A DNA stretch of 64,000 nt from Candidatus Gastranaerophilales bacterium (lineage in GTDB: Bacteria > Cyanobacteriota > Vampirovibrionia > Gastranaerophilales > Gastranaerophilaceae). Shown piece by piece: positions 1,825-46,299 of this stretch (position 1 is its first letter; each line of letters opens with the position of its first letter). The position numbers were made by a program, and so were the translations under genes. The stretch spans positions 1 to 64,000 of the forward strand of contig CALVAA010000010.1 in the NCBI GenBank assembly GCA_944325315.1, in the 5' to 3' direction. The notes beneath the pieces are model-generated. The model saw nothing but the letters and a program-made list of their open reading frames with translations. It did no database searches and had not been told where the DNA came from.

Positions 1825-1906
1825 AGTAAAATTATTCTAATATAAAAACAAAAAAAAATGAAGAAATGTAAAAAAATATAATTAAAAAAGAATTAATATA
1901 TCAATC

Positions 1907-1934
1907 TTGACTTTTGAAATGTTTTTCATATAAT
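1907..1934 (+). promoter_or_regulatory. Sigma-70-type promoter of the 69-residue small gene
   Basis: TTGACT (1907-1912) and a perfect TATAAT (1929-1934) are separated by 16 bases. An upstream ATG at 1933 lies inside the -10 box and so cannot be the translation start; the next in-frame ATG at 1963 is then favoured. Confidence 0.6.
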
Positions 1935-1962
1935 GGTTAATGCGCCCCAAAAAGAGAACAGT

Positions 1963-2172
1963 ATGGCAAGAATAAACGGACTAAATTTTAATATCGCAAG
2001 CAACGGAATGAATTTGTATACCAAAAGAACCTGTTCAGATAACTCCGAGTTATACATTACTTCCAAATTAAATATGTTATACAAACAGGCACTTTCAAGT
2101 AAAAACCAATTCAATAGCCGAAGAAATCTGAGAAAAATGGTTGAAGGAAACCATTTGGATGAAACAGTTTAA
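1963..2172 (+). CDS. Small hypothetical protein, 69 residues
   Basis: Short protein beginning MARINGLNFNIASNG, rich in Asn, Ser, Lys and Arg, without a signal peptide, membrane segment or recognised motif. The open frame extends upstream to an ATG at 1933, but that codon overlaps the -10 box of a good promoter (1907-1934). The start at 1963 is preceded by a purine-rich AAGAGA about six bases away, so I chose it. The gene is convergent with the unknown minus-strand gene ending at 2175, leaving two bases between the stops. I do not recognise a family. It is probably real because of the promoter and the ribosome binding site, but its short length leaves doubt. Confidence 0.5.
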   Translation: MARINGLNFNIASNGMNLYTKRTCSDNSELYITSKLNMLYKQALSSKNQFNSRRNLRKMVEGNHLDETV

Positions 2173-2174
2173 AA

Positions 2175-2702
2175 TTAAATTTTTTTCTTTAATTTAACCT
2201 GCAGTTCATTTGCATATTTCAGATATTCTATTAGATTCTGATAACGACTTTCAGATTCCCCGTAGGGAATAGTCTTATCTAATAGAACTTTAGCATCAAT
2301 ATTCAATTCCCTAAGCTTCACCATAGCGTCTTTTACCAGTTTTGCTTTATAAAGCTTAGGAAAAAAAGTGAACAAAAATTTTTCGATATTTATAAAATTG
2401 CTCTTTTGTGCTTTGTTTTCTTTAAAGTTTAAAAAACGCTTAATCAATTTAAAAGCAGAATTATCCATAGGGCTTTGTTTTGCTGCGTTTTCGAGCAAAT
2501 TAAAATCATAATTGTTTATTCTTTTGTGCAGAACTTTCTCATTTTCAACAGGATGACAGATAAAAGGAGAATTTGACATATCCTCTGCAGGAACAATTCC
2601 GTATAAATTTTCAATATTTTCCTGCTCATCTGAAAATTCGTTTTTAATGATTCCTGATTTAATTAATTTGTCTGTTAATGAATCGTATTGACTATTTTCC
2701 AT
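2175..2702 (-). CDS. Hypothetical cytoplasmic protein, 175 residues
   Basis: Unrecognised protein starting MENSQYDSLTDKL. The frame is open five codons further, to a TTG at 2717, but the ATG at 2702 is the more likely start. Neither has a Shine-Dalgarno sequence. A CATAAT hexamer sits six bases before the ATG. The sequence is charged and apparently soluble, with predicted helical stretches (FKLIKRFLNFKENK and a Lys-rich C-terminus), no signal peptide and no cysteine pattern. It is divergent from nifU, with under 100 bases between the starts. No function can be given. The length and normal amino acid make-up support a real gene. Confidence 0.6.
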   Translation of the reverse strand: MENSQYDSLTDKLIKSGIIKNEFSDEQENIENLYGIVPAEDMSNSPFICHPVENEKVLHKRINNYDFNLLENAAKQSPMDNSAFKLIKRFLNFKENKAQKSNFINIEKFLFTFFPKLYKAKLVKDAMVKLRELNIDAKVLLDKTIPYGESESRYQNLIEYLKYANELQVKLKKKI

Positions 2703-2760
2703 ATTTATATTATGCAATGAAATATAAAATTTTTTGCCATATACAAGTACGATTTTTAAG

Positions 2761-2769
2761 TGGTATAAT
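2761..2769 (+). promoter_or_regulatory. Extended -10 promoter of nifU-nifS
   Basis: TGGTATAAT is an extended -10 element (TGn plus a perfect TATAAT), 29 bases before the nifU ATG. No good -35 box sits at the usual distance, as is common for extended -10 promoters. An AAGG Shine-Dalgarno lies about six bases before the start. Confidence 0.5.
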
Positions 2770-2798
2770 GCAGATGTAGATGATAAATAAGGTAATTT

Positions 2799-3623
2799 AT
2801 GTGGGAATATTCAGATAAAGTAAAAGAGCACTTTAAAAACCCCAGAAATGTCGGGTCTATCGAAAATGCAGACGCTATTGGAGAAGCAGGCGCACTTTCA
2901 TGTGGAGATAAACTAAAATTATATTTAAAAATTGACAATAATGTTATTACAGATGCAAAATTCCAAACATTCGGCTGTGGTTCTGCTGTTGCGGCAAGCA
3001 GCGTATTAACAGAAATGCTCATCGGAAAAACAATAGAAGAAGCAAGAAAAATAACCAACAAACAAATAGCACAAGAACTGGACGGCCTTCCTCCCGAAAA
3101 AATGCACTGCTCCGTTATGGGCAGGGAAGCTCTTGAAGATGCGCTCAAAAACTACCTGCAGGAAGACTGGGAAGAATTATATGAAGATGACAAAAAAAAC
3201 GGCTCAATGATAATTTGCCATTGTTTTGGCGTTAGCGAAAAACAAATAATAGAAGCGATAAATAACGGCGCAAAAACCATGGAAGACATAACAAAAATGA
3301 CTTCTTCCGGGCTTGCATGCGGAAGATGTCGTGAAAATATAGAAAAAATTCTTAAAAAATATGTTATAAAAAATAAAAGAGAAAAGTTAAATCCTATTCA
3401 AAAAATTATAAAAATAAATAATATTATAGAAACAATAATCTCTCCCGAATTACAAAAAGACTTTGGAGATATTGAACTTGTAAATGTAGACGGCAACAAT
3501 GTGTATGTAAAGCTTAAAGGTCATTGTTCCAATTGTGCAAATGCAAAATTGACCCTGAAAAATTTTGTTGAAACAAAATTAAAAGAGCTTGTAGATGATG
3601 AAATTGTTGTTTTGGAAGAATAA
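2799..3623 (+). CDS. nifU: NifU-type iron-sulfur cluster scaffold, three domains
   Basis: Scaffold on which Fe-S clusters are assembled with sulfur from NifS, for delivery to apo-enzymes in the cytoplasm. The domains are those of full-length NifU. An IscU-like N-terminal domain (about 1-125) carries the three conserved cysteines in LSCGDK, FGCGSA and MHCSVMG. A Bfd-like [2Fe-2S] domain (about 135-185) has CHCFG and CGRCRENI. A C-terminal Nfu domain (about 205-274) has the CxxC in HCSNCANAK. The 274 residues are close to the family length. nifS follows after three bases, so the two are co-transcribed. There is no nitrogenase gene nearby, so this is probably the general Fe-S assembly system, as in some other anaerobes. 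Confidence 0.95.
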   Translation: MWEYSDKVKEHFKNPRNVGSIENADAIGEAGALSCGDKLKLYLKIDNNVITDAKFQTFGCGSAVAASSVLTEMLIGKTIEEARKITNKQIAQELDGLPPEKMHCSVMGREALEDALKNYLQEDWEELYEDDKKNGSMIICHCFGVSEKQIIEAINNGAKTMEDITKMTSSGLACGRCRENIEKILKKYVIKNKREKLNPIQKIIKINNIIETIISPELQKDFGDIELVNVDGNNVYVKLKGHCSNCANAKLTLKNFVETKLKELVDDEIVVLEE

Positions 3624-3626
3624 AAA

Positions 3627-4817
3627 ATGAAAAATATATATTTAGACAACAACGCAACCACAAAGGTCGACGAAAGAGTTTTAGAAAAAATGCTTCCTTT
3701 TTTAAAGGAAAATTATGCTAACCCTTCAAGCATGTACGATCCCGCAAGGTTAAGTGCTAAAGCAATTGAAATTGCAAGAAAACAAGTAGGTGATTTATTA
3801 GGGGTAAGTGACAGCAAAAATATTATTTTTACTTCATGTGCCACGGAAAGTGCTAACACTGCAATAAAAGGAGTTGTAGAAAAATTTGGCAACAGGAATA
3901 ATAAAAATCACATAATAACAACACAAGTCGAACACCCTTGCGTGCTTTCCGTCTATGAAAATTATGAAAAAAAGGGTTTTAAAACAACCTATCTTGGCGT
4001 AGATGAAAACGGAGATTTAGATATAGAAAATCTTTTATCCAAAATCACTCCCGAAACATTTTTAGTTTCAATAATGCATGCAAACAACGAAACAGGGGCT
4101 GTTTATCCTGTTAAAGAAATTGCAAAAGAAGTAAAAAAGATAAACAAAGAAATCAAATTTTTCACTGACGGAGTTCAAGCCGCAGGAAAAGTGCCAATAG
4201 AATTGGACGATAGTGAAATAGATTTTTATTCAATATCAGGCCATAAATTCCACAGCCCAAAAGGGGTTGGGGCGCTTTATGTTAAAAAAGGAAACTTATT
4301 TGAGCCTTTTATGCTCGGAGGACACCAGGAAAATTCTTTAAGAGCAGGTACTCAAAACACCCCTTATATTGTTGGGCTCGGAGAAGCTGCAAGACTTGCA
4401 AAAGAATATTTAAGCGAAGAATATAAAGTAAAAATATTGAGAGATAAACTTGAAAACGGAATTTTATCTGCATTGAAAAATGCACGTTTAAATTCAAGAA
4501 GCAAGCAAAGAGTTCCAAACACAACAAATATTGGTTTTGAATACATTGAAGGAGAATTAATACTGCTTTATTTAAACGACATTGGCATATATGCCTCATC
4601 AGGAAGCGCTTGTACTTCGGGCAGCCTTGATCCTTCACATGTTTTAAGAGCTCAGAAAGTGCCTTTTACAAGTCTTCATGGGTCAATCCGCTTCTCTCTT
4701 TCAAGATATACAACAGAAGAAGAGATTAACTATACAATAGAAAAAGTGCCTGAAGTAATAAAAAAACTGGCTAAAATTTCACCTTTTCAAAAAGAATTAA
4801 ATGAATTAGGTTTGTAA
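3627..4817 (+). CDS. nifS: Cysteine desulfurase NifS
   Basis: PLP enzyme that removes sulfur from cysteine as a persulfide and passes it to the NifU scaffold. The N-terminus has the family opening YLDNNATTK. The PLP lysine lies in SGHKFHSPKG (near residue 205). The persulfide cysteine lies in SSGSACTSG (near residue 328), in the short class I style loop typical of NifS/IscS. The 396 residues are normal. The gene starts three bases after nifU and ends three bases before the oppositely oriented AsmA-like gene, without an obvious terminator between. The pairing with a three-domain NifU favours NifS over IscS as the name. Confidence 0.95.
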   Translation: MKNIYLDNNATTKVDERVLEKMLPFLKENYANPSSMYDPARLSAKAIEIARKQVGDLLGVSDSKNIIFTSCATESANTAIKGVVEKFGNRNNKNHIITTQVEHPCVLSVYENYEKKGFKTTYLGVDENGDLDIENLLSKITPETFLVSIMHANNETGAVYPVKEIAKEVKKINKEIKFFTDGVQAAGKVPIELDDSEIDFYSISGHKFHSPKGVGALYVKKGNLFEPFMLGGHQENSLRAGTQNTPYIVGLGEAARLAKEYLSEEYKVKILRDKLENGILSALKNARLNSRSKQRVPNTTNIGFEYIEGELILLYLNDIGIYASSGSACTSGSLDPSHVLRAQKVPFTSLHGSIRFSLSRYTTEEEINYTIEKVPEVIKKLAKISPFQKELNELGL

Positions 4818-39184: not shown

Positions 39185-42100
39185 ATGATTTATTATAAAA
39201 AGAAAAGTTGGATTAAAAAATTAAAAAACGGAATTGAGAATTTAAACATACCTGAACTAAACGCATTCAAAGGTTTGTTTAAAAACTTTATTATTTTTAT
39301 TGTAGTTTTTTGTTTGGCTATATACTTTTCTTATCTTTTTATACTTCCAAAGTTTATAAACGAAAAAAATGTTGAAAACATCATAAACGCAGCTCTTAAA
39401 AAACAATCTGATATAGGTTTTGATGCCGTTAATTTAAAAATTAACCCGAAATACAATTTAAATATTAATCTTAGCGCAGACAAGATAAAAATTTTTCATA
39501 AAAACCAGGATAATATAACACTGAACAAAGCAGATATAGACATTAGTCTTATAACATTATTTTTTGGTTATTTGGATTTAAACAAAATAAAAGTTGAAAA
39601 AATAAGCATAAATTCGACTTTTACGAAACAGCATCGTTACTCGACTGCATCCTTTTTTAAAACAGAATTTAAAACAGAATCAAAAGGTAAGATAAAATTA
39701 AGAAATATACACATCATAGCAGACAAAATTATTTTAAAACTTTACGATGAAAATATAAACAAAAACTTTTACATTAAAACCGACAAAACAAAAATATACA
39801 TAAATAATGAAAACAAATATTCAAGAATCATTACAAAAGGAAGTATAGCATCAAATAAAAAACTTGCCGATATTAATCTTAACATATCTTTTAAAACAAG
39901 AAAAAATATTTTAAAAAAATACAAAGATATAACCGAGAAACTCAACTATAACCCTTTGTTTTACGCTGATAAGTTCAATTTTTATTCAGACATTAATGCA
40001 AATCTAAAAATCACTCCTTTAGAGAAAAAAACAGACATCATAGGAAAGGTAAATCTTAAAAATTATAGTTTTTCATTATCTGATTATAAACTTCCAAAAA
40101 ACAATTTAATGCTTATCTTTAAAGGAGACAGCATTTCAACTGACTGTGATTTTAAATTTATAAATAATCAATTCATAAAAATACAATCCAAAGCGTCAAT
40201 ATCGAAAAACAAATTTATAGAAGCTGAAATAAAATCAAATGAAATCAATCTTAAAGATTTAGATGAAATCTTAAAAGTATTTTGCAATATATTAAACTTA
40301 AAAATCGACACATCAGATTTTATCCTTTTGGGAAATATTAAGGCAAATTTATATATAAAAAGCAATTTTAAAAAAATCAACTCCAAAGGATTGCTGTTAA
40401 TTAAAAACGCCGGCTTGATACACAAAAAAACAAATTTAGCCCTTAAAAATATTAATTCAAATATAAATTTTAACAACAATAAAATAGATATCATAAATAC
40501 AAGCGCTTATATCGGTGAAGCTAAATTCTATTTAAAAGGCATTATTGACAATAACACAAACTTAAACATAGACATAAATTCAGATCTAATCAACATAGCA
40601 AAAATTATAAGCCTTGTAAAAAGCTTGCCTTTTGCGGATAAGATTAATCCGCAAATCGACAATTATTCCTTTAAAAGCGGACTTTTAAAAATCAATACGC
40701 AAATCAAAGGCAATTTGAATTTACCCGTTATTAAAACAAATTCACAGTTGAAAAACTTTAAAGTATTACTTAAAGAATACAATAATGAAATATCCCTAAA
40801 AGAAGCTTTGATAAGCATAAGCCCTCTAAAAAACAATACAGGTAACATTTTTATAAAAATACCCGGTTCGAGTATAGCTATAAATAGAGAAAATTTAAAT
40901 ATACATTCAGTAAAACTCAACTACAGCAAAGATAGTGTAACAATTGAAAAAACCCCTTTTGTTTTTAAAGGTTCTAATGGCACTTTTGAAGGAAATATTA
41001 AAACAAAACAAAAAGAATTAAATTTCAACATCCTGATAGATTCAATCAAAAACAACAAATTTATATCTTTAAACCAAAACAATCAAAGCCTTATTTCAAA
41101 TATAACATACAAAAACAAAAAGCTTTTTATTAACAGTTTAAATATTGCAGATTCTATTTATATAAACGGATTAGTAAATAATACAAATTCCAAAAATCCA
41201 AAATTTGAAAATATCAAAATTTTAATACCGAACAAAACAAGCATTAGCTTAAAAACACTCTGTACAACCCTTGATTTAAAAGGTCAAATAACACTAAATG
41301 GAAACATAAAAAACCCTTTAGCAGACGGTGAATTAAACGTATATAATTTATATAATCAAAAATTTAATTTAAAATTAAATGATGCGATTTTAAATTTTAG
41401 AAATTCAAATGTATATATAAATGCGATCAATGCAAAATTTTATGACACAAACTTCGACCTTACCGCTGAAGCAAAGTACGAAAACAATAAAATAATATTC
41501 AATTTTGTAAATATCATTGCAAATTACGTAAATCTTGATAAACTAAGCAGCTTTACAGTCAACAAAGATATTCAAAATATTGAATATGAAATAAATAATT
41601 TAAAAGGAAATATCACCTCCCTTGAAGGAGCAAATCTTCTTTTGGATTCGGTTATATTTGAAGGAAATATTAAAAATAATATTTTAAAAATCACAAATTT
41701 AAAAGCATTGGTATTCAACGGAATAATAAACGGTGAAGCGTATATTAATCTTAAAACCAACAAAGTTTTAGCGGATCTTATTTTAAAAGAGCTTAATGTA
41801 AGACATTTAACAACTGAATTTAAAGAACTTTCAATAGCTGCAAGCGGCAAATTGAGCGCACTTTTAAAAGTTGAATTTTCCGGTTTTGAATTTAGTGACA
41901 TTTTAAAAACAATCAAAGGTTATATCAAATTTAACATAGATAACGGCGAACTTTCCCAATTTGCAAAACTTGAAAGATATTTACAAGCAGGCAACATTCT
42001 TTCATCCAATATTCTTAAGTTAACTCTAAATTCGACTTTATCCGCTATAACAAAACAAAACACCGGGGATTTTAAAACAATTGAAGGAACGGTTAATTTA

Positions 42101-42502
42101 TCTGATTCCAAAGCAAGCATACAATACATTAAAACTCAAGGCTCAAATATGAGTACATATATAACAGGTAATTTTAATCTTATAAATCAATATGCAAATG
42201 TGAAAGTCTTGGGAAGAATTCCTTATTCAATGGTAAGCGTTTTTGGAAATATAGGAAAATTCAGCCTGAAAGATTCCGTAGACAAAATGAATGAAAATAC
42301 TAAAGATGTTATAAAAACAATAACCGTATCTCCTGTTGAAAAAATGATGTCTGTTGAAATTCCAAAAGAACAAACAGATAAGATTCCTCCGCTTGCATAC
42401 AAAGACCCGACGATTCCAACCAGGGAATTTATAGTATTTATAGACGGAAATATTAAAAATATAAGCTCAATAAAATATTTTAAATGGAATCTAAAAGAAT
42501 AA
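39185..42502 (+). CDS. Giant AsmA/TamB-like envelope protein 3, in the tonB-exbBD operon
   Basis: An 1105-residue protein with a basic cytoplasmic start, one transmembrane segment (about 35-58, FIIFIVVFCLAIYFSYLFIL) and a long beta-rich periplasmic part. The AsmA-like opening (NVENIINAALKKQSDIGFDAVNLKINPKYN) resembles that of protein 2. The shared C-terminal block is IKFNIDNGELSQFAKLERYL, and the protein ends with SSIKYFKWNLKE. It begins five bases after exbD2, which is the strongest evidence that it works with the TonB/ExbB/ExbD motor. A proposed role is force-driven movement of lipid or its regulation; this is inference. dnaJ follows after 65 bases. Confidence 0.8.
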   Translation: MIYYKKKSWIKKLKNGIENLNIPELNAFKGLFKNFIIFIVVFCLAIYFSYLFILPKFINEKNVENIINAALKKQSDIGFDAVNLKINPKYNLNINLSADKIKIFHKNQDNITLNKADIDISLITLFFGYLDLNKIKVEKISINSTFTKQHRYSTASFFKTEFKTESKGKIKLRNIHIIADKIILKLYDENINKNFYIKTDKTKIYINNENKYSRIITKGSIASNKKLADINLNISFKTRKNILKKYKDITEKLNYNPLFYADKFNFYSDINANLKITPLEKKTDIIGKVNLKNYSFSLSDYKLPKNNLMLIFKGDSISTDCDFKFINNQFIKIQSKASISKNKFIEAEIKSNEINLKDLDEILKVFCNILNLKIDTSDFILLGNIKANLYIKSNFKKINSKGLLLIKNAGLIHKKTNLALKNINSNINFNNNKIDIINTSAYIGEAKFYLKGIIDNNTNLNIDINSDLINIAKIISLVKSLPFADKINPQIDNYSFKSGLLKINTQIKGNLNLPVIKTNSQLKNFKVLLKEYNNEISLKEALISISPLKNNTGNIFIKIPGSSIAINRENLNIHSVKLNYSKDSVTIEKTPFVFKGSNGTFEGNIKTKQKELNFNILIDSIKNNKFISLNQNNQSLISNITYKNKKLFINSLNIADSIYINGLVNNTNSKNPKFENIKILIPNKTSISLKTLCTTLDLKGQITLNGNIKNPLADGELNVYNLYNQKFNLKLNDAILNFRNSNVYINAINAKFYDTNFDLTAEAKYENNKIIFNFVNIIANYVNLDKLSSFTVNKDIQNIEYEINNLKGNITSLEGANLLLDSVIFEGNIKNNILKITNLKALVFNGIINGEAYINLKTNKVLADLILKELNVRHLTTEFKELSIAASGKLSALLKVEFSGFEFSDILKTIKGYIKFNIDNGELSQFAKLERYLQAGNILSSNILKLTLNSTLSAITKQNTGDFKTIEGTVNLSDSKASIQYIKTQGSNMSTYITGNFNLINQYANVKVLGRIPYSMVSVFGNIGKFSLKDSVDKMNENTKDVIKTITVSPVEKMMSVEIPKEQTDKIPPLAYKDPTIPTREFIVFIDGNIKNISSIKYFKWNLKE

Positions 42503-42567: not shown

Positions 42568-43635
42568 ATGAAATACAAAGATTATTATGAAATATTATCC
42601 GTACCACGCTCGGCAAGTCAGCAGGAAATAAAATCCGCATACAGAAAACTTGCAAGAAAATATCATCCGGATGTTAACAAATCTCCTGATGCTCAAGCTA
42701 AGTTTAAAGATATAAACGAAGCTTACGAAGTTTTAGGGGATGAAAACAAAAGAAAAAGATATGACCAACTGGGCTCAGCTTGGCAACAAGGAGCAGAATT
42801 TACTCCGCCACCGGGGTTTGAAGGCTTTAATTTTTCAAATTTTGGCGGTGGTTTTTCAAGTTCACAAGGAGCACCCGGCGGTTTTTCAGACTTCTTTTCT
42901 GCAATTTTCGGCGATATAATGAGTCAACAAATGAATTCACGCCAGTCTTCACGTGCAAATTACAATAACTTTAGCGGCTTTGATTCTTTTTCAAATTACT
43001 CAGGGGGCTTCAGCAGTCAAAATCAAAGAGCAAAAACAGCGGAAAGCAAAAAAGAAGAGTCGCTCGACATTATTCAAAATGTTGTTTTAACCGTAAATGA
43101 TTTAATAAATTGCCCCAAAAAATCCGTTGTAATAAGTGCATATCAACCCTGCCAGGTATGCCACGGTTCAAAACAGGGGTTTTGCTCAAATTGTGCTGGC
43201 ACGGGAATTGAAAAGATAACAAAAAGTTTAACTTTTCAAGTGCCAAAGTTTGTTAAAGAAGGACAAAAAATCAGGTTAAAAAAAGAAGGCAAAAAAGACG
43301 CATACGGCAATATCGGTGATGTTTATCTTGTTGTAAAAATTGAAGATAAAAGCTATGAAATCAAAGATTACAATCTGATAAAAGATATTGAACTTCTGCC
43401 TTGGGAAGCAGTTTTGGGATGCGAAAAACAAATAGAAACACCAACCGGAAAAATTAAAATTAAAATTCCCAAAATGACTTCCACAGGAAAAAAACTCCGT
43501 CTGAAATCAATGGGATTACCCAAAAAAGACGGCACAAAAGGAGATTTTGAAGCAAGAATTAAAATTGTCCTAAAAGAAGATCTATCAAAAGAAGCTTTTG
43601 AATTGTATGAAAAATTAAAAAAATTAAACGCCTAA
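42568..43635 (+). CDS. DnaJ/CbpA-type co-chaperone with a reduced zinc finger
   Basis: Co-chaperone that stimulates DnaK. The N-terminal J domain (1-70) is complete, with [34 protein letters not shown] and the HPD triad. A Gly/Phe/Ser-rich stretch (about 75-155) follows. Instead of the four CxxCxGxG repeats of DnaJ there is only [19 protein letters not shown] (about 192-210), enough for one zinc. The C-terminal substrate domain has [17 protein letters not shown] and [18 protein letters not shown]. Length 355. It thus lies between type I DnaJ and type II CbpA. TATTAT ends six bases before the ATG and no Shine-Dalgarno is present. A large inverted repeat follows the stop. Confidence 0.88.
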
Positions 43636-43763
43636 TTTTTCCCTCTATTTAAAGTACTTTATTTTTATTATACTTTTGTCTATTATAAAGATAAGTTTAA
43701 AGTTGTATAATAAAATTACTTAGGTAGATTTTATTAGTACAACTGTCTAAATAGAGGGAAAAA
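43636..43763. repeat. Nested inverted repeat between dnaJ and the VKOR gene
   Basis: Outer arms TTTTTCCCTCTATTTA (43636-43651) and its exact complement (43748-43763) are 16 bp with no mismatch. Inner arms TTTTATTATAC (43663-43673) and GTATAATAAAA (43705-43715) are 11 bp. The left arm touches the dnaJ stop. The right arm holds the GAGGGA ribosome binding site of the VKOR gene and ends on the A of its ATG. The TATAAT at 43706-43711 could be an internal -10 box. It could be a translation switch or a small mobile-element relic; no target duplication is evident. Confidence 0.7.
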
Positions 43764-44977
43764 TGGAAAATAACCAATTAAAGTTTACAAAAATTCGCTT
43801 TTTTATTTTGCTATTTTTAATTATAGTAGGAATTGTTCTTTGTATAGATTTAGGCTACATATTCTATAAAACAAACTTTTTAGACACATTCATGCCGAGT
43901 TTTTGCTCTGTTTCAAATTTAATTGACTGTGACGGTGTAGCGCAAACGTCTTATGCTCTTTCGTTCGGTGTTCCTAATGCTTTATGGGGAATACTGTTAT
44001 ATTCTGTTATGCTTATGCTTTTATTTGTAGACAGAATTCAAATTGCTTTTAAAAATACTATTTTTGACGTGTTTAAAAATCCAAAAAGTTATATTGCAAC
44101 ATTAGGGATTTTATCATTCGCAATTTCAATGATTTTGGCTTTTATTTCAATATATAAAATAGAAAAAATTTGCGTTCTTTGTTTTATGACCTATTTTATT
44201 AATCTTTTTATAGCTCTTGTTGCTGCGGATTTAAAAAGTTTTTTTATAAACGATATAAAAACCACAATCGTTGATTTTGTAGACGGTGCAAAAAACCATT
44301 TTATTCTTTTTGTGGTAGTTTTAACCGCTTTTATACTAACTCTTGTATATCTGGAAGACAGCCTGATTCTTTCGCCAAAACTTAAAAAAGAACGTGCAAT
44401 GAAAGAGTTTTATGCAGATGAAAACAAATATGCAATAAAAGGAAATATTTTAGGAAAAGAAAATTCCAAAGTTACAATAAAAATATACAGCGACTTTAAC
44501 TGTCCGTTTTGCAAAGTTGTCAATATAATGCTTCATAAGCTTGCAAAAGAAGAAGATGTTTTTATTGAAGAAATACAATACCCTCTTGATACAAGTTGCA
44601 ACAAAAAAATCGGAGGAACCTTGGGCGGGCATGAAAATTCATGTTTATATTCAAGATATGCTATTGCTGCAAAAAAACAAGGAAAATACTGGGGCGCAGC
44701 CGATGTATTATTCTATAAACATCCCTATAGCGAAGATATGATTATTGAAGAATTTAAAAAAGCCCGCTTAAATCTTGATATTGAAAAACTTAAATCAGAC
44801 GCTAACAGTCCAAGTGTATATAGCGAACTCATTCAAGATATCGAAAAAACATTCTCGCAAAACATAAATGGTACACCAACCATAGATATAAACGGCGTAA
44901 TATATCCGGGTGCGCTGCCTTATGAAGAACTTAAAAGCAAGTCTGTTCTTGCTAAAAAAAGAGCGGAAAACAACTAA
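43763..44977 (+). CDS. VKOR-DsbA fusion protein for disulfide formation
   Basis: Oxidises periplasmic thiols and passes electrons to quinone. The N-terminal VKOR half has four or five membrane helices, the loop cysteines C48 and C56 (FCSVSNLIDCDG) and the quinone-side CVLC (137-140). The C-terminal half (about 215-404) is a thioredoxin-fold DsbA/DsbG-like domain with CPFC (247-250) and cis-Pro in GTPTID. This VKOR-plus-thioredoxin fusion is known from cyanobacteria. The fused domains mean one protein both makes and receives the disulfide. The ribosome binding site lies in the right arm of a 16-bp inverted repeat. queH follows seven bases later. Confidence 0.93.
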   Translation: MENNQLKFTKIRFFILLFLIIVGIVLCIDLGYIFYKTNFLDTFMPSFCSVSNLIDCDGVAQTSYALSFGVPNALWGILLYSVMLMLLFVDRIQIAFKNTIFDVFKNPKSYIATLGILSFAISMILAFISIYKIEKICVLCFMTYFINLFIALVAADLKSFFINDIKTTIVDFVDGAKNHFILFVVVLTAFILTLVYLEDSLILSPKLKKERAMKEFYADENKYAIKGNILGKENSKVTIKIYSDFNCPFCKVVNIMLHKLAKEEDVFIEEIQYPLDTSCNKKIGGTLGGHENSCLYSRYAIAAKKQGKYWGAADVLFYKHPYSEDMIIEEFKKARLNLDIEKLKSDANSPSVYSELIQDIEKTFSQNINGTPTIDINGVIYPGALPYEELKSKSVLAKKRAENN

Positions 44978-44983
44978 GAAGTT

Positions 44984-45520
44984 ATGGAAAAGATATTGCT
45001 ACATGCCTGTTGCGCACCATGTACGACTTATCCGATAAAAAAATTGATTTCGGAAGGATACAGGCCTGTAGTATTTTTTTATAATCCAAACATTTATCCT
45101 TTTAAAGAACACGAAAAAAGAAGATTGGAACTTAAAAATTATTGCAAAAAAATAGACATTGAATACATAGAAAGTCCTTATGAAATTAAAGAATTTTATA
45201 AAAGAATTAAGGGATTTGAAAAAGAAAAAGAAAAAGGAAAAAGGTGTTCAATTTGTTTTAATTTAAGACTTGAAAAAACGGCCAAAACCGCAAAAGAAAA
45301 TGGTATAAACTTTTTTACGACAACTCTAAGTGTTTCACCTCATAAAAATTCAAATCAAATATTTGAGCAAGGAAGAATTATAGCTAAAAATTTTCAGCTT
45401 AATTTTTTAGAATTTGATTTCAAAAAGAAAGACGGGTTTAAAATCTCAAGACAAATTGCAAACGAAAATAATATGTATAAACAAACCTGGTGCGGGTGCG
45501 AATTTTCAATAAGAAATTAA
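44984..45520 (+). CDS. queH: Epoxyqueuosine reductase QueH
   Basis: Reduces epoxyqueuosine to queuosine in the wobble base of tRNAs with GUN anticodons. QueH (DUF208) is the non-orthologous alternative to QueG and carries a metal cluster plus Fe. The signature cysteines are all there: HACCAPC (near residue 10), RCSIC (near residue 88) and WCGCEFS near the end. The 178 residues are typical. It follows the VKOR fusion by six bases. Its stop overlaps the stop of the opposite gene by four bases. Confidence 0.93.
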   Translation: MEKILLHACCAPCTTYPIKKLISEGYRPVVFFYNPNIYPFKEHEKRRLELKNYCKKIDIEYIESPYEIKEFYKRIKGFEKEKEKGKRCSICFNLRLEKTAKTAKENGINFFTTTLSVSPHKNSNQIFEQGRIIAKNFQLNFLEFDFKKKDGFKISRQIANENNMYKQTWCGCEFSIRN

Positions 45521-46299
45521 TCAACCGGGCAAATTCTTCCTTCTTTAACGGCAAATTCTCTTTCTTTACTAATAATGTTGTCTGCCGAATCCTTTTGAAT
45601 TCCATAAAGAACTTTTTTAACTTTTCTGTTTTCATCAAAGAAAAATCTTGAGTTTTTCATTTTTGTAGTGCTGTTATCATGTATAATACCGTCAGCATAT
45701 TGCAATTTATTGTTATCGTAATTTAATTTATACAAAACAGGCGAAAAAGAATCAAAGCCGGTATAAATCTGTAAAATTTCCCCGTCATATATATCTGCAA
45801 CAGTAAAACTGTGGTTATCATCTAAATTATATTCTGCAAAACTGTATTTAATCATGCCTTTATCGTTCCAGGGGGTTGTTTTTATAAATCCAAATTGCTG
45901 CGAAGTGTTTGGAATTTTACCTCCACTGTAGCCGTAATAATATCGTCTTGCATCAATTGGTATACCTTTATAATCTTGCTCAACCTGAATATTTAAAAAG
46001 TTATGAAGGCAAATATACTTCCTCCCTTTTGAATCAACAAATTTTCCGTTATTTTCACCTTTATTATCTTTCAAAAGCTTTCTTACAAAAGAATCGTATT
46101 CCAATAGTTCTTCTTCAATATTTGGACTTGCCATAATTTCAACTTCTTTTGTCATTTTTTCCAAAGCTTTTATTTTTCTATCATCAAAAATCTCTTTTCC
46201 TGTTGGTTTAATTGCCTTTTGAAAAGCAACATTATTTTTAAAATTATTTTTTTTATAATTCGAGCTTATATTAAAAGAATTTAGCTTTACTATATTCAA
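45517..46299 (-). CDS. Hypothetical protein, 260 residues
   Basis: I do not recognise a family. It begins with a TTG that has an AAGGA ribosome binding site about ten bases upstream. The N-terminal 30 residues are Asn/Lys/Ser-rich and end in NNVAFQK. The rest is soluble, with aromatic and Asp-rich patches such as YYYGYSGGKIPN, SFTVADIYDGEILQIYTGF and FFFDENRKVKKVLYG. The latter part resembles short YD-like beta hairpins that describe an input and a 'KKVLYG' output, but I would not assign a repeat. No signal peptide or membrane segment. The N-terminal pattern resembles that of the truncated gene at 26354-26598. It is convergent with queH. Confidence 0.7.
   Translation of the reverse strand: MNIVKLNSFNISSNYKKNNFKNNVAFQKAIKPTGKEIFDDRKIKALEKMTKEVEIMASPNIEEELLEYDSFVRKLLKDNKGENNGKFVDSKGRKYICLHNFLNIQVEQDYKGIPIDARRYYYGYSGGKIPNTSQQFGFIKTTPWNDKGMIKYSFAEYNLDDNHSFTVADIYDGEILQIYTGFDSFSPVLYKLNYDNNKLQYADGIIHDNSTTKMKNSRFFFDENRKVKKVLYGIQKDSADNIISKEREFAVKEGRICPVD

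Follow-up and report, generated by a model that had tools for sequence, protein, structure and literature searches.

In the genome of a Candidatus Gastranaerophilales bacterium, the spacer between dnaJ and the downstream gene for a VKOR-DsbA/thioredoxin fusion protein (hereinafter VKOR) carries a long inverted repeat, one arm of which overlaps the ribosome-binding site (RBS) of VKOR. The question raised by this locus is whether the repeat prevents transcripts that read through from dnaJ from being translated into VKOR, or is a neutral by-product or a mobile element. We addressed this question by analyzing the 64,000-nucleotide stretch of DNA that contains the locus (hereinafter the window, to which all coordinates refer unless another locus is named), the genome to which it belongs (1.81 Mb, 34 contigs), and the genomes of its relatives.

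The dnaJ-VKOR locus and its inverted repeat

Four genes follow each other on the plus strand, namely, a gene for a large, putatively TamB-like protein (39185-42502, +) without a Pfam match; dnaJ; VKOR, which is separated from dnaJ by a 127-nt spacer; and queH (Table 1). Of the four CxxCxGxG motifs that DnaJ proteins usually have, the protein translated from this dnaJ ORF contains only two, CQVCHGSK and CSNCAGTG, and a Pfam search of this protein yielded no match to a zinc-finger family. In the VKOR fusion protein, PF07884 covers residues 15-154, and PF13462/PF01323 cover residues 227-392. The gap between VKOR and queH is only 6 nt, and queH is located immediately 3' of VKOR in genomes G027 and G010 as well; the two genes are likely cotranscribed. 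A 260-aa ORF without a Pfam match (45517-46299, -) faces queH and is divergent from rpoB. In G010 (L245), a divergent gene pair, 3093-3728 (-) and 1871-3091 (-), is located just 5' of the VKOR promoter; their sequences suggest that they encode, respectively, a peptidase regulator resembling LexA and a polymerase resembling UmuC.

The initial annotation of the window described a perfect 16-bp inverted repeat, with the left arm starting right after the dnaJ stop codon and the right arm including GAGGGA and the A of the VKOR ATG. The repeat is real and perfect, and the left arm does adjoin the stop codon, but each arm is 17 nt rather than 16 nt long, and the first base of the left arm is the final A of the TAA itself. 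The arms are 100% complementary and are separated by a 96-nt loop; the right arm contains GAGGGA as well as both the A and the T of the ATG (43763-43765). The nested 11-bp arms that had also been reported are weaker than described: the perfect nested pair is 9 nt long (43708-43716 / 43728-43736), and a second nested pair spans 14 nt at 93%. The longest perfect inverted repeat observed in the 1.59 Mb of the genome surveyed is found at another locus (L169 3202-3371, G000 contig C2) and consists of 24-nt arms, ACTTAACAATTTGAATAAAATGTT, with a 122-nt loop.

Table 1. Coordinates of the genes, repeat arms and promoter elements of the dnaJ-VKOR locus
Feature	Position	Strand	Basis
dnaJ, upstream gene	42568..43635	+	ORF; Pfam PF00226 and PF01556 (DnaJ, DnaJ_C domains)
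dnaJ stop codon TAA	43633-43635	+	ORF
Left (anti-RBS) arm ATTTTTCCCTCTATTTA	43635..43651	+	Perfect complement of 43748-43764; limited to this species
Conserved box TATACTTTTGTCTATTAT, 17-nt core ATACTTTnGTCTATTAT	43669..43686	+	28/28 genus genomes, at most 1 mismatch
Spacer, 19 nt, constant in length, variable in sequence	43687..43705	+	Genus comparison
-10 element TATAAT of the VKOR promoter	43706..43711	+	Invariant, 28/28 genomes
Predicted 5' leader of promoter-initiated mRNA	43718..43762	+	Putative start 6-7 nt after the -10 element
AACTGTCT, just 5' of the Shine-Dalgarno sequence	43741..43748	+	Alignments; ACTGTC recurs in most of the genus
Right arm TAAATAGAGGGAAAAAT	43748..43764	+	Shine-Dalgarno GAGGGA (43754-43759) and AT of ATG
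VKOR-DsbA/thioredoxin fusion, 404 aa, masked gene	43763..44977	+	Pfam matches
queH, epoxyqueuosine reductase	44984..45520	+	Pfam PF02677

Predicted masking of the VKOR start site in read-through RNA

The RNA comprising positions 43600-43800 folds with a predicted energy of -43.4 kcal/mol (z = -4.9). In the dnaJ-VKOR read-through RNA, the 17-bp helix is predicted with a mean pairing probability of about 0.95, which closes both the Shine-Dalgarno (SD) sequence and the AUG. The predicted probability that the SD sequence is unpaired is 0.005 in all sequence contexts, from 200 nt up to lengths of 1.8 kb and the whole of dnaJ-VKOR, and ranges from 0.003 to 0.01 at temperatures between 30 and 50 °C. 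The RNA initiated at the promoter located between the arms lacks the left arm, and the corresponding values are 0.58 when 40 nt of the coding sequence are included and 0.36 with longer sequences. Thus, at the level of modeled RNA structure, the original proposal is supported on both counts, namely, that transcripts reading through from dnaJ would fold over the SD sequence and the start codon, and that those from the internal -10 element would remain open.

When the 60 nt located 5' of the promoter box were shuffled, SD accessibility returned to 0.33, and none of the 60 shuffled sequences gave a value as low as the native one. Among 611 sampled SD-bearing long ORFs of the genome, each with 170 nt of upstream sequence, VKOR has the lowest SD accessibility. 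When the left arm was compared with 1188 start regions, its best partner was the VKOR RBS (-21.5 kcal/mol, compared to -17.5 kcal/mol for the runner-up). No Rfam family was detected at this site, the only match in the window that reaches the threshold being a tRNA elsewhere, and a known riboswitch, thermometer or leader family was rejected on these grounds. Likewise, no RNA consensus structure was obtained for the genus between the spacer and the ATG (energy of 0.0, RNAalifold on a MAFFT alignment).

A genus-wide promoter with a single target

The internal -10 element noted initially, TATAAT, belongs to a promoter that is conserved in every one of the 28 genomes analyzed for the genus. The pattern ATACTTTnnTCTATTAT-N19-TATAAT is found 5' of VKOR, with at most one mismatch, in 28/28 genomes, and is present in one copy per genome, at VKOR, with the single exception of G027, which contains one additional 1-mismatch site; a reversed control search produced zero matches. 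Across the genus, the distance between the box and the -10 element is fixed whereas the distance from the -10 element to the ATG varies, a pattern that fits a promoter rather than an RNA element. The box is retained irrespective of the identity of the upstream gene, be it dnaJ, the one for the TamB-like protein or another, and together with the conservation in 28/28 genomes, this indicates that VKOR, or VKOR-queH, has its own conserved promoter. Counted from the predicted start, the box occupies positions -49 through -32, and with TATAAT as the -10 element, the location of its centre at -40.5 suggests a class II activator position.

Outside the genus, few matches to the box were found, with 2-3 mismatches, and these were not above the control. 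A regulon controlled through this box was considered and rejected because, within the own genome, matches with 2-3 mismatches equal the reversed control. Two possible additional sites, G000:C1:98252 in front of a gene for a small membrane protein and G027:C14:15512 in front of a gene for a von Willebrand-type protein, were detected, neither of which is common to different species. The genus-wide, single-target VKOR promoter is a more robust finding than the masking of the RBS. In the literature searched, we found no promoter work on the regulation of disulfide-bond formation in Gastranaerophilales, and the conserved single-target box provides a sharp handle on the control of this process.

We further observed that, in about half of the genus, the -10 region AGACAGTTGTATAATAAA can form 7-11 bp with the sequence preceding the SD, TTTATTATACAACTGTCT (window 43687-43748, L025, L027, L028, L030-L033, L035-L037, L039, L040, L045, and L050). 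The register of this pairing differs by clade, and related rows do not count as independent cases. The promoter-initiated RNA would lack the 5' half of the pairing.

Terminators and RBS masking in related species

The left arm is absent from all 27 congeners, so the arrangement is not conserved. In 15 other species, dnaJ is located directly upstream of VKOR, and the longest complement of the RBS in the upstream sequence of these relatives is 0-8 nt, as opposed to 17 nt in the window. According to the initial annotation, loss of the arm in close relatives that keep the gene pair would argue against control; this objection applies in part, given that the arm is found in 0/15 of the dnaJ-linked relatives. 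What 11 of these 15 species possess instead is an intrinsic terminator between the dnaJ stop codon and the box, consisting of a perfect stem of 8-13 bp with a T-run behind it; the tail of this terminator is the T-rich edge of the box. No terminator-like site was found between dnaJ and VKOR in the window. Hence control by the arm would be, at most, a trait of a single lineage.

We then compared the predicted SD accessibility in read-through RNA between dnaJ-linked species with and without the terminator. In the five species that lack it (the window species and four others), accessibility is between 0.00 and 0.31, with a mean of 0.14, and in the 11 species with the terminator, it is 0.51. The association between the absence of the terminator and a masked RBS yields p = 0.001 in the Mann-Whitney test, but the species are not phylogenetically independent, and because the terminator species form two clades plus one unrelated case in the tree, and thus represent few independent events, this p value is not to be taken at face value. 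Among the five species without a terminator, only in the window species and in L026 is the occlusion significantly stronger than with shuffled upstream sequence. Several relatives display weaker occlusion through different 5' sequences, for instance the promoter box of L044, L046 and L038. In L044 and L046, the box TACTTTCGTCTATT forms 13/14 pairs with the VKOR RBS AATAGAGGAAAGTA (-15.8 kcal/mol). In these two species and in L038, the VKOR RBS has its complement in the box, and read-through RNA would mask the RBS with no added arm.

A putative translational insulator and the alternatives

Taken together, these observations are compatible with the following scenario. VKOR, probably along with queH, would normally be transcribed from its own promoter, box-N19-TATAAT, and these transcripts, which would start 3' of the left arm, would be translated. 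In RNA reading through from dnaJ, the 17-nt arms would form a long-range hairpin that closes the RBS and the start codon of VKOR. The left arm would then insulate VKOR, by acting on translation, against transcription coming from dnaJ, the role that the terminator would perform in the dnaJ-linked sister clades. We give close to an even chance to such a translational insulator of the T4 gene e type, in which the read-through RNA would be silent rather than terminated. This reading presupposes that the read-through RNA exists, adopts the predicted fold inside the cell, and has an effect that is under selection. If the scenario is correct, a chromosomal gene pair of an uncultured gut lineage has swapped a transcription terminator for a translational insulator, a type of replacement that is seldom sought because most operon predictions ignore the structure of read-through RNA.

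A broader version, which we regard as unlikely, is that selection acts in the genus to insulate VKOR from transcription arriving from upstream, and that lineages differ in whether they use a terminator or RNA that masks the RBS; the masking sequence would be a new anti-RBS arm in the window species and the promoter box itself in L044 and L046, with the box of VKOR-queH having a single target. Under this version, one DNA element in L044 and L046 would be both an activator site and an anti-RBS.

Nearly as likely as the insulator is a neutral origin, whereby the left arm is an inverted copy of the RBS that emerged by chance or by template switching in an unconstrained spacer crossed by little read-through transcription; VKOR would be expressed from its own promoter, and the hairpin would have no selected role. 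The restriction of the arm to one lineage is in line with this explanation, as are the fast evolution of the spacer between dnaJ and the promoter, the most rapidly changing part of the region, and the existence of a few further perfect inverted repeats of 16-24 nt in the genome. A survey that covered 1.59 of the 1.81 Mb of the genome revealed four perfect inverted repeats with arms of 17 nt or more and loops of 20-300 nt, compared to a mean of 0.53 expected under an order-2 Markov model. Against neutrality, only about 0.03 such repeats with at least 5 G/C in the arm are expected in 1.59 Mb, and an origin of the inverted repeat by chance is unlikely; furthermore, the arm falls exactly on the SD sequence and the start codon, in the sole dnaJ-VKOR spacer, and, judging from the folding models, an effect on any read-through RNA would be physically hard to avoid.

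Given that its first base belongs to the dnaJ stop codon, the left arm also could be part of a switch coupled to dnaJ translation: ribosomes finishing dnaJ would hold the left arm single-stranded, so that VKOR would be co-expressed with a well-translated dnaJ and shut off when translation drops. Indeed, a ribosome positioned at the dnaJ stop codon has the left arm within its footprint, and blocking positions 43620-43648 abolishes the predicted helix and raises the probability of an unpaired SD sequence from 0.005 to 0.35. The arm would, however, be covered only briefly by each ribosome, the arrangement is found in no relative, and the case comes from folding; we consider such a switch improbable. 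For the insulator, the same prediction implies that masking would be leaky when dnaJ is heavily translated.

Very little probability attaches to a role of the repeat as a pair of operator half-sites 113 bp apart or as an RNase processing site: two identical inverted 17-mers do flank the promoter, but the right arm is an ordinary RBS with a different counterpart in relatives, where the left arm, unlike the conserved box, is missing. Finally, the alternative raised initially, a 128-bp terminal-inverted-repeat element of the MITE type, suggested by the terminal repeats and the AT-rich interior, is refuted, because the paired arms are present in a single copy in this genome (the sole exact match; matches with up to 2 mismatches are not above the reversed control), in 1/286 genomes of the order, and in none of the viral contigs, because the interior is the VKOR promoter that is conserved throughout the genus without the arms, and because there is no target-site duplication (flanks CCTA on the left and GGAA on the right).

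Comparison with known systems

The closest parallel is the control of gene e (lysozyme), soc, 49 and I-TevI of phage T4, where early read-through RNA masks the RBS, and RNA from the late promoter lacks the 5' arm, with both the structure and its effect proven experimentally (PMC3014915). As in that class, the 5' strand of long upstream transcripts is predicted here to pair with the SD sequence and the AUG (17 nt, perfect; helix at about 0.95), and an internal promoter is located between the arms (-10 element and box in 28/28 genomes, with a predicted start site), the RNA from which would escape, so that only the read-through RNA would be silenced. In contrast to T4, the present case involves a bacterial chromosomal chaperone-oxidoreductase pair, with a 17-bp helix and a 96-nt loop in one species, and no temporal sigma switch is known at dnaJ-VKOR. 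Given that the arrangement is not kept in relatives (left arm in 0/27 congeners), the dnaJ-VKOR arm appears to work like the T4 class without being an established member of it. By analogy, this would be a known style of control, RBS masking of the T4 type, in a new place.

In the transposase genes of IS10 and IS50, RNA from external promoters forms a hairpin over the RBS, and RNA from the inner promoter does not. The predicted outcome at dnaJ-VKOR is similar, with masked read-through RNA and open inner-promoter RNA, but the arm of IS10/IS50 is part of the element and protects it at any insertion site, whereas the dnaJ-VKOR arm belongs to no mobile element and always has the same gene upstream. 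The intrinsic terminators of the sister clades occupy the same position as the left arm and presumably have the same outcome, namely, that dnaJ RNA yields no VKOR; the terminator acts on transcription, whereas past the dnaJ-VKOR arm, the RNA would continue and be translationally silent.
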